From positions 1 through 64,000 of the forward strand of contig JAIQFB010000017.1 of assembly GCA_020073485.1 (NCBI GenBank): 64,000 nucleotides of DNA, written 5' to 3'. Source of the stretch: Terriglobia bacterium. GTDB lineage: Bacteria > Acidobacteriota > Terriglobia > Acidiferrales > UBA7541. Each line of letters opens with the position of its first letter. The stretch's first letter is position 1. The notes beneath the pieces are model-generated. The model ran no database searches. It saw nothing but the letters and a program-made list of their open reading frames with translations, and was not told the DNA's origin. Both the position numbers and the translations under genes were made by a program. Shown piece by piece: positions 21,288 through 24,298 of this stretch.

Positions 21288-22225
21288 ATGAGCGCCGTGG
21301 AGCTCCGCCCTCTCAGTCTTGGAGAACTGCTCGACCGGCGTTCCTTCTCTACCGCGGAAATCTTTGGTTGTTTGTCGGGATTATGGCGATCCCATCCTGC
21401 CTAATTGTCCCTTTTCAGTTTTACTATATGCGAGCCAGAGGGAACCCGTTTCCGTTCACCAGGCCGGCCGCGCAGCCCCACTCCGGAGGATTGGCCCTCG
21501 CATTCATTTTCGTGACCTGGCTCCTTTTTTGGATTGTGAACGGGGCAACGACTTGCGCGGTCTCCGAGGTGTATTTCGGACGCTGCCCCACAATTCGGGA
21601 GGCATTCGACGGAATCCGCGCGCGCATATTTGGAATCATCGGCCTGTTTTTCAATGTCGGGATTCGTGCGGCAGGTTTGATCATTTTGTTCGCATCGGCC
21701 GGCCTATCGGTAGGAGTGATATTTGCGGTCATTGCGGGCGGCAGCGGCCCGAAGGCGGAAAGTCTTGGAGCGGGGCTCGGCGTCGGATTGGGCTTGGTGG
21801 GGTTGGGAGTCGGCTCGTGGCTCTCTATGCGGTATGCCCTCGCGATGCAAGCGATGCTCCTGGAGGACGCAAAGGGCCGCGCGGCGATCCGCCGCAGCGT
21901 GCAACTCAGCCGCGGCCGCCGAGGCCCCTTGTTTCATGCCTTCCTGCTGACCGTTGTGATCGCTTATGCGGGGGTTATCGTATTTCAGGGGCCGTTCTAC
22001 TTGGCCATTGCCTTGATGAGGGTCAACGGCCGGCTGCCCAGCTGGATGGCGCTATGCCTCTCCGCGTCAGGCTCGGTGGGGGGAGCTATTACCGGCCCGC
22101 TGTTCATGATTGTTGTGGTTCTCTTCTACTACGACTTGCGAATCCGCAAAGAAGGTTTTGACCTGCAATTCATGATGACATCCCTTCCCGAACCCAAGCC
22201 CACGGATTCGACTCCCGCAAATTAG
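21288..22225 (+). pseudogene. Glycerophosphoryl-type multi-pass membrane protein, frameshifted near its N-terminus
   Basis: Starting at the ATG at 21288 (GGAGA eleven bases upstream), the first frame reads MSAVELRPLSLGELLDR. It then loses sense, while a different frame continues AFLLYRGNLWLFVGIMAIPS to the end of the gene at 22225. Adding one base at about 21334-21340 would join them into a protein of about 312 residues, whose opening is typical of DUF975/glycerophosphoryl diester phosphodiesterase membrane-domain-like proteins. Five or six hydrophobic segments follow. The single-base loss is either an assembly error or a real inactivation. Its stop codon TAG lies in the target duplication of the adjacent transposon. 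Confidence 0.65.
22218..22225. repeat. Left 8-bp target-site duplication
   Basis: CAAATTAG, repeated exactly at 24291-24298 directly outside the other transposon end. It includes the stop codon of the upstream gene. Confidence 0.9.
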
Positions 22226-22247
22226 GGCAATAATATACTTGACTCAG
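22226..22247 (+). repeat. Left terminal inverted repeat
   Basis: 22 bp identical to the reverse complement of 24269-24290. It contains a TATAAT-like stretch (AATAATATACTT) that could act as a promoter element for the passenger genes. Confidence 0.9.
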
Positions 22248-22326
22248 GGCACTTGGGCGGTGTCCAATGAGGGGACAGTCTCTATGGGAATCTTCTTTGC
22301 CTGTTCCCGTGCAGCCGGAGGACTGG

Positions 22327-23094
22327 ATGGCGCATTTCCATATCTATGCTGACGAAAGCGGAAAATACGAAACGCCAAACTGCGAGTACACATCAATGTG
22401 CGGCTACCTGGGCCATGCTTCGGAATGGAATAAATTCTCCGAAGATTGGATGAATTGCAGGTTACGCTGGGCCGCTCCGCCGATTCATATGGGGAAAATT
22501 TACCATGCGGATGAACACCCGGAATGGTTGAGATTACAAAACAAGTGGGGGATTGAGTGGGATGAGCTACGCGAAAGAATGCTCTTGGAATTCGCTAAGA
22601 TAGTGGCCCGCTCTAATCTTGTCTGCATAGCGGCTGTCGTGGATGCAGCTTACTTTCGAGCACTCCCTGATTCCGCCTTCAAGAGGACTAATCTTGGTCC
22701 AATTGAAATGTCTTTCCATCGATTAGTAACAATGGGGATAGCAAGAACGGAAGTGATCGACAGGCACTCTTCGATTGGCCTTGTGCTTGATGACGACGCG
22801 GCATCCTATGCGCGATATTACCAATACCTGCTTGCATTAAAGTCGATGAACCCTAAAGTAAAAGAAAGAATAGCTTCCCTCTGTTTCGTAAATGATGAGG
22901 CGTATCCTGGGGTGCAAGCCGCAGACATGGTGTCTTATGATGCCCGCAGCTATATGTGGGCCAAGAAGAGCAATCCAGACATGGAAGTACCGAACAGGCT
23001 GAAGTTTTTAAGCAACTCAAACATGCACATACCGGATTTTTATGGACCTAAGGCGTTGGATGCCCTGAACGCTGGAGGAGGATACGGGGAATGA
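22327..23094 (+). CDS. DUF3800 family protein, transposon passenger
   Basis: 255 residues. The ATG at 22327 follows GGAGGAC and begins MAHFHIYADESGKY, the typical DUF3800 opening with the DESG motif. Other likely active-site parts are IGLVLDDDA at about 170 and PGVQAADMVSYDARSY at about 215. DUF3800 is thought to have an RNase H-like fold, but its function is not established. The frame extends 20 codons further upstream without similarity. The stop overlaps the start of the next gene by four bases (ATGA), so the two are translationally coupled. Base composition matches the transposase and is lower in GC than the chromosome around it. Confidence 0.85.
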   Translation: MAHFHIYADESGKYETPNCEYTSMCGYLGHASEWNKFSEDWMNCRLRWAAPPIHMGKIYHADEHPEWLRLQNKWGIEWDELRERMLLEFAKIVARSNLVCIAAVVDAAYFRALPDSAFKRTNLGPIEMSFHRLVTMGIARTEVIDRHSSIGLVLDDDAASYARYYQYLLALKSMNPKVKERIASLCFVNDEAYPGVQAADMVSYDARSYMWAKKSNPDMEVPNRLKFLSNSNMHIPDFYGPKALDALNAGGGYGE

Positions 23095-23264
23095 AAGCAC
23101 AGACTGAGGCAAGCAACTTTGAACAGCTAATGAAGTCCGTACTTTCCGTTTCGCACGATGAAATCAAGAAGCGAGAAAAAGAATGGAAGGACAGGCGGGT
23201 TCGGGGAAAGAAGGGGCGCCCTAAGACTGCGCCCGCTTCCCGCGTGGCAACCGTAAAGGATTAG
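23091..23264 (+). CDS. 57-residue basic protein, transposon passenger
   Basis: A short frame starting in the ATGA overlap with the DUF3800 gene. It reads MKAQTEASNFEQLMKSVLSV then SHDEIKKREKEWKDRRVRGK, with a basic tail KGRPKT. It is highly charged, probably a helix followed by a flexible basic end, with no family I recognise. The four-base overlap with the preceding stop and the four-base convergent overlap with the transposase stop show that the element is packed end to end. A role as partner or regulator of the DUF3800 protein is inference. Confidence 0.7.
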   Translation: MKAQTEASNFEQLMKSVLSVSHDEIKKREKEWKDRRVRGKKGRPKTAPASRVATVKD

Positions 23265-24229
23265 TTGGTCGTGGAGGAACCCACCTTGCCAGTGACTTCG
23301 GCATAGGTGAGACGCTTGCCAAGAATATGAGACAGAACGCTATCAAACCGCTCGCCATCATGAATCGGGGAATCCTTGCTTCCACGATTGTTAAACCGGA
23401 AAGCCTGTTCGTCGAGATACCGGAACAGGTGGAACGGCTCGACGCTCACATAGGTTCCCTTGATGCCACGCTTGAGCAAGCTCCAGTAGTTTTCCAGTCC
23501 GTTGGTATGCACGATCCCGTCCGCGTAGGCAACTGCATGGTCAATGACTTTGTGGGCATAATCTTCTTCGAGATCGTTGTACGAGGGAAGCGCGTCGGTA
23601 AAGAGAATCGAACCAACGCCTACATTCTTTTTGACTTCCTCGTGCAAGGTTCCCTTGCGGCGATTCTTCGGCATCGAAGTGCGAACCTTGCCGCCACGTT
23701 CGAGGAATCCGACAACAAGAGTTTTGTCCCGGCCATCAGTGCCTTGAATCTTCCGGGCGCGAACTGCCTTGTGCATGTTGCGGGACAGGCCGCCGATGAA
23801 AGTCTCGTCCACTTCGACGGTCTTTCCATTCCCGCCGAGCTTCATGAAAGAACCGCTCTGCATGGCAAGGCGAATCCGGTGCATCATAAACCATGCGGAC
23901 TTCTGAGTGACGCCGATAGCTCGGGCCACTTCGTAGGAACTGATACCGTTCTTGCAATTCGCAATCATCCACATGGCAGTAAGCCATTTGTCGAGGCCGA
24001 CCGGGGAATCTTCAAAGATCGTTCCCACTTTCATGCTGAATTGCTTGCGGACATGCTTGTGTTTGCACTCCCACATGCGGCGAGTGGAGATATGACGGAC
24101 TTCGCTACTCCCGCAAGTTGGGCAGATGACGCCATTCGGCCAGCGCCGCGCAATCATGAACTTGAGGCAGTTGTCGAGGTTGGAAAAGTAGGTGATAGCT
24201 TGCTGGAGTGTTTTTGGCTCGGCGCTCAT
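23261..24229 (-). CDS. IS1595 family transposase
   Basis: 322 residues. The N-terminal zinc ribbon is RWPNGVICPTCGSSEVRHIS ... MWECKHKHVRKQFSMKVGTIFEDS. The ISXO2-like DDE domain has VEVDETFIGG, the second Asp in LFTDALPSYNDL, and HTNGLENYWSLLKRGIKGTY for the last acidic/polar position. The ATG at 24229 follows GAGGGA. The protein is full length with no stop or frameshift, so the transposon may still be active. Confidence 0.95.
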   Translation of the reverse strand: MSAEPKTLQQAITYFSNLDNCLKFMIARRWPNGVICPTCGSSEVRHISTRRMWECKHKHVRKQFSMKVGTIFEDSPVGLDKWLTAMWMIANCKNGISSYEVARAIGVTQKSAWFMMHRIRLAMQSGSFMKLGGNGKTVEVDETFIGGLSRNMHKAVRARKIQGTDGRDKTLVVGFLERGGKVRTSMPKNRRKGTLHEEVKKNVGVGSILFTDALPSYNDLEEDYAHKVIDHAVAYADGIVHTNGLENYWSLLKRGIKGTYVSVEPFHLFRYLDEQAFRFNNRGSKDSPIHDGERFDSVLSHILGKRLTYAEVTGKVGSSTTN

Positions 24230-24268
24230 TGTGTCCCTCACAAGCCAAACTTTAGCAGAAATGGGTTA

Positions 24269-24290
24269 CTGAGTCAAGTATATTATTGCC
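24269..24290 (-). repeat. Right terminal inverted repeat
   Basis: 22 bp, the perfect reverse complement of 22226-22247. It is followed directly by CAAATTAG. Confidence 0.9.
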
Positions 24291-24298
24291 CAAATTAG
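24291..24298. repeat. Right 8-bp target-site duplication
   Basis: CAAATTAG, identical to 22218-22225. Confidence 0.9.

Follow-up and report, generated by a model that had tools for sequence, protein, structure and literature searches.

An IS1595-family element with a conserved small basic gene and a probable exchangeable cargo slot holding a DUF3800 gene

The 64,000-nucleotide stretch considered here (hereinafter, the window; contig JAIQFB010000017.1 of a Terriglobia bacterium, positions 1 to 64,000) contains, at positions 22226-24290, a transposon of the IS1595 family that encompasses three tightly packed genes, namely, a DUF3800 gene, a 57-codon gene for a small basic protein and a transposase gene. 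The element is bounded by perfect 22-bp inverted ends, the left one, distal to the transposase (22226-22247, plus strand), being GGCAATAATATACTTGACTCAG and the right one (24269-24290, minus strand) its reverse complement, and is flanked by an exact 8-bp target-site duplication, CAAATTAG, at 22218-22225 and 24291-24298. Its insertion point coincides with the stop codon, TAG, of a gene for a membrane protein (21368-22225), and this TAG belongs to the left copy of the duplication. The same end motif, together with an 8-bp repeat, was found again in 65 related elements, so that these ends are not a chance arrangement. Apart from the end repeats, no second copy was detected in the 5.05-Mb draft genome, that is, the element is single-copy. 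A search among relatives for the empty insertion site yielded no intact one, with only the right-hand flanking gene aligning well (77-83%).

The DUF3800 gene (22267-23094, plus strand) overlaps the start of the small gene (23091-23264, plus strand) through an ATGA, and the stop codon of the small gene overlaps that of the convergent transposase gene (23261-24241, minus strand) by 4 bp. This gapless packing, as well as the assignment to an IS1595-type transposon with perfect ends, an exact duplication and internal genes, had been proposed in a sequence-only reading of the window, and the coordinates and family domains obtained here agree with it. The transposase contains the DDE_Tnp_IS1595 domain (PF12762, E 4.2e-37; NF033547, E 2.9e-51) with the catalytic triad D145, D216 and E250 in place, preceded by an N-terminal zinc ribbon (PF12760, E 1e-11) that is characteristic of all IS1595 groups except IS1016. 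Together with inverted ends that start with GG and an 8-bp target duplication, these are the features by which the family has been described (PMC8101967) and which we used for the comparison. A promoter-like site for the transposase (24249-24277, minus strand; TTGACT-17-TAAAGT), of which TTGACT sits within the right inverted repeat, matches the consensus no better than shuffled sequences do.

Homologs of the small protein have a median length of 55 amino acids and a median net charge of +8, and share the consensus F..F.........VPH.EI..R....K; one Phe is invariant, one Val is nearly so, and the proteins have a Lys/Arg tail. The structural model of the window's protein (pLDDT 77.5) consists of two predicted helices, residues 6-19 and 22-40, joined at a conserved V-[SP]-[HK] turn, beyond which the basic tail is poorly ordered. 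In 20 of the 75 homologs, this tail carries a GRP/RGPK-like motif that resembles an AT-hook (KKGRPK in the window); these elements have AT-rich ends. The gene evolves under purifying selection, with dN/dS of 0.12-0.30 in 12 of 13 pairs; the possibility that it is a non-coding antisense frame was rejected because of this selection and because its overlap with the transposase gene is only 4 bp.

No family match to the small protein was found in Pfam, NCBIfam, PHROGs, PADLOC or the PDB sequences, the only Pfam trace being TORC_N (E 0.021, below the cut-off), and Foldseek returned no match either. A tblastn search of plasmids with the 45-residue small protein of one related element (L014) retrieved nothing, and the small-protein profile did not match any of eight plasmid IS1595 loci, the transposases of which are 30-40% identical; thus, the small gene marks one clade rather than all IS1595 elements. 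Alphaproteobacterial plasmid IS1595 elements encode a different small protein of 46-62 amino acids (RF.EAAREL..DDE..F...L..IA.QKP), unmatched by the profile, that adjoins the transposase or follows PIN-containing cargo (L235:5274-5459, L236:3122-3310, L240:4121-4261, L242:3489-3635 and L243:3486-3629, the last with no IS1595 transposase annotated nearby); this is possibly an analogous or distantly related gene with the same place in a fixed frame. Two other elements, L053 and L055, contain a second recurrent short open reading frame (ORF; 97-99 amino acids) between the small gene and the transposase, at positions 1067-1360 and 1020-1319 of the element, respectively.

The product of the DUF3800 gene matches PF12686 with an E-value of 4.9e-7 (31 bits against a cut-off of 21). 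Translation likely starts at the ATG at 22327, which follows a Shine-Dalgarno sequence, GGAGGA (22317-22322), by four bases, given the disorder predicted for residues 1-20 of the longer version (mostly pLDDT <50). The model, built on an alignment of 30 relatives, is confident (pLDDT 83.5, pTM 0.80) and resembles RNase H2 (1eke; Z 11.6, rmsd 4.0, 172 residues aligned; Foldseek, VIA-align), which bears out the RNase H-like prediction of the sequence-only reading at the level of the predicted fold. Among the acidic residues, D220, located in a helix, is invariant and D29, in the DES motif of strand 1, nearly so, in agreement with the RNase H fold with a rearranged active site that has been described for DUF3800 (PMC10910872). 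Our best guess from the model is that the protein is a nuclease. None of the three proteins matched a PADLOC model, and no close relatives of this DUF3800 protein were found in viral contigs, plasmids, phages or 84,980 species genomes. The genome from which the window comes contains two more DUF3800 genes, both without the small gene (G000:C6:149422-149706 and G000:C28:185342-185941).

We compared the element with related loci, about 180 in all and spread over several bacterial phyla. Relatives of the transposase were found at 30 loci on viral contigs and at 80 loci in genomes. These come mostly from Acidobacteriota but also from Verrucomicrobiota, Planctomycetota, Actinomycetota, Alphaproteobacteria and Cyanobacteria. 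An element was considered delimited when both end repeats and an exact 8-bp duplication were found by script, which was the case for 66 elements including that of the window. In nearly all of these, 1-4 kb of other genes lie between the transposase stop codon and the distal repeat, so that carriage of passenger genes is the rule in this clade.

The small gene travels with the transposase. The small-protein profile, which started from the 57-residue protein and, like that of DUF3800, was iterated on sequences of this same analysis, matched within 58 of the 66 delimited elements but not once in the flanks, and at 85 loci in all. In a class-wide sample of 299 genomes picked independently of the transposase, 80 of the 113 small-gene matches have a full-scoring transposase no more than 5 kb away, compared to 0.57 expected by chance, and for 61 of them the distance is at most 300 bp; both genes are present in 52 of the 299 genomes (Fisher p 2.5e-25). 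With a more sensitive transposase profile, a transposase was detected at 63 of 70 small-gene loci taken from this sample, 35 of which are delimited by ends and duplication. Evolutionary distances point in the same direction: those of the transposase and the small protein are correlated across elements (plain r 0.53, n 72, p 2e-4; rank r 0.26, n 125) and also among the 29 DUF3800-bearing elements (r 0.30, p 0.001), whereas in DUF3800-bearing elements the distances of DUF3800 correlate neither with those of the transposase (r -0.06) nor with those of the small gene (r -0.07; p >0.7), with the reservation that all these tests count related elements as separate points.

The remainder of the element is exchanged. 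In L040 and L041, the end repeat, the transposase and the small gene form one continuous stretch of 93% identity, after which only the last 41 bp, at the distal end, are shared; between L083 and L109, similarity stops exactly at the start codon of the small gene and returns only for the 25-bp end, and between L022 and L051 it also breaks at the small gene start. Even where both elements contain DUF3800, the genes can be far more distant than the DNA around them, for example, in L026 and L042, where the proteins are 17% identical and the frame DNA is 78% identical. The element with the frame nearest to that of the window, L173 (transposase 72% identical), encodes a DUF3800 protein only about 15-19% identical to the window's. 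When 91 element pairs with transposase identities of 68-98% were compared, no shared cargo DNA could be detected in 88. The absence of a matching duplication around L040, with its swapped cargo, might reflect exchange by recombination between elements.

Among 103 passenger ORFs, which were called mechanically so that single assignments among the unmatched ones are uncertain, Pfam identifies DUF3800 in nine, the other families being singletons or pairs: AIPR, PemK, PIN, Fic, GmrSD, DNA methylases with restriction domains, a protein kinase, AAA_15/AAA_21 ATPases, DUF7689 and DUF3226. PADLOC adds AbiU (L067, E 5e-171), PD-Lambda-5_B (L060, E 2e-108), AbiLi/AriA-type ATPases (L109) and type II methyltransferases (L061). 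With a purpose-built profile, a DUF3800-like gene was found at 26 of the 70 sampled small-gene loci and is the commonest cargo seen. Conversely, of the 30 best DUF3800 loci of the class, the small gene was present at a single one, so that most DUF3800 genes do without it. A recurrent cargo family of about 280-330 amino acids occurs in eight elements (L010, L011, L039, L045, L055, L056, L084 and L102); three members were scanned and showed no Pfam match over the cut-off, making this a candidate defense family.

The organization into a frame and a slot, the co-inheritance of the transposase with the small gene and the replacement of cargo all emerge from the comparison of sequences, and the element is very probably a cargo-carrying member of the IS1595 family with a fixed frame and one exchangeable slot. 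The frame would consist of the inverted repeats, the transposase and the conserved basic protein of about 55 residues, and the slot would extend from the start of the small gene to the distal repeat. The small protein, a predicted hairpin of two helices whose basic tail in some cases resembles an AT-hook, may bind the element ends, the target DNA or the transposase and help or regulate transposition, a tentative assignment that we place just short of evenly balanced. The DUF3800 protein would be a metal-dependent RNase H-like nuclease acting in defense; because known defense genes fill its slot in sister elements, we give the defense role an even chance. The sequence-only reading had taken DUF3800 and the small gene for a co-inherited pair forming a defense, addiction or transposition-aid module. 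The pairing does not stand, as the distances are uncorrelated and the small gene accompanies many unrelated passengers, which is the outcome that the sequence-only reading itself had named as refuting it; taken separately, the suggested roles may still fit, transposition aid for the small gene and defense for the DUF3800 cargo.

Several observations weigh against a frame of fixed composition. Most of the loci come from metagenome bins in which contig ends hide some transposases; with this caveat, 45 of 125 full-scoring transposases, some at contig ends, have no recognized small gene within 5 kb, so the gene is not strictly required, and 7 of the 70 small-gene loci show no transposase. L161 (3128-4614) is a 1487-bp element with matched ends and a 7-of-8 duplication that contains DUF3800 and the small gene only, without a transposase. 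In the L108/L113 lineage, the small gene has diverged (43-47%) while the transposases are 91% identical, and in one very close pair with few differences (L112/L113) dN/dS is not below 1. In L077 and L141, the small ORF is fused in frame to the DUF3800 ORF, which could mean a functional link; because the fused cargo differs, being a methyltransferase in L060, we read these fusions as a consequence of the tight overlap.

Among the alternatives, the one that survives best, although we consider it unlikely, is that the small protein helps the expression or stability of the cargo slot rather than transposition, either as a regulator or as a terminal cistron that separates the transcripts of the cargo operon and the convergent transposase. 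The small gene does usually close the cargo operon, end to end with the transposase, and is retained in some transposase-less elements, but it tracks the transposase rather than the cargo, varies in orientation and position among elements, and is conserved as a protein under purifying selection. Quite improbable is a role of DUF3800 outside defense, in the transposition or the RNA processing of the element itself. RNase H-like folds do occur in transposases as well as nucleases, and an association of DUF3800 genes elsewhere with structured RNAs and with a Cas12a2 branch has been described (PMC10910872, PMC11701678), but most sister elements lack DUF3800, and searches of the window and of 13 loci with a DUF3800 gene returned no DUF3800-associated Rfam RNA motif. 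We regard as very improbable a two-gene functional module of DUF3800 and the small protein (toxin-antitoxin, defense or addiction) in which other passengers later replaced DUF3800 while the small gene lingered: at most of the 26 small-gene loci that have one, the DUF3800-like gene immediately precedes the small gene on the same strand, with an overlapping or near-overlapping start, and the DUF3800 fusions and the transposase-less L161 also fit such a module, but the two sets of distances are uncorrelated, most DUF3800 genes lack the small gene, the small gene keeps its convergent position next to the transposase in elements whose DUF3800 gene lies on the opposite strand (L026, L042, L040 and L155), the fusion in L060 involves a methyltransferase, and the small gene is kept with AbiU, GmrSD, restriction-modification and other cargo.

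If the reading of a fixed frame with an exchangeable slot is correct, an element that ranks among the smallest carriers known for bacterial defense genes has a fixed two-gene frame, and the small protein could serve as a marker for such elements and for their slot genes, many of which would be candidate defense genes. It would also provide a guilt-by-slot argument that DUF3800, a widespread RNase H-like family, often acts in defense, and would raise the question of how a simple insertion sequence swaps its cargo yet keeps its frame. The broader proposal, that a large multi-phylum IS1595 clade is a general shuttle for defense genes, with a dedicated small DNA-binding cofactor that works together with the transposase and a cassette-like slot in which cargo changes while the frame persists, is rather doubtful.

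The element type itself is ordinary: like other members of the IS1595 family, it combines a zinc ribbon and DDE transposase with 8-bp duplications, short inverted ends and passenger genes. IS1595 members with passenger genes were reportedly named 'transporter IS' by Siguier, Gagnevin and Chandler in 2009. Unlike the family as described, a second gene is conserved along with the transposase in dozens of elements from several phyla, and the cargo slot is sharply bordered at this gene. No description of a second conserved gene or of a bordered slot in IS1595 elements was found in the searchable literature, a scope outside which Siguier 2009 and ISfinder fall, so this does not prove novelty. IS1 encodes InsA, a small DNA-binding regulator whose reading frame begins at the same start as that of the transposase. 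The small protein of the window would be analogous to InsA as a small element-encoded DNA-binding protein, the activity hypothesized here, but its gene is separate and convergent, and it has no sequence similarity to a known family. The DUF3800 protein resembles other PF12686 proteins in its above-threshold Pfam match, its predicted fold of the RNase H type and its conserved acidic residues. In contrast to the TPR-DUF3800 proteins linked to Cas12a2 (PMC10910872), it is a stand-alone protein carried as transposon cargo, with no TPR domain, CRISPR or nearby DUF3800 RNA motif. Finally, with AbiU, PD-Lambda-5, GmrSD, AriA/AbiLi-like and restriction-modification cargo in sister elements, the group resembles defense-gene-carrying transposons but, unlike these generally, its members are very small (about 2-4 kb), insertion-sequence-like and built around one slot.
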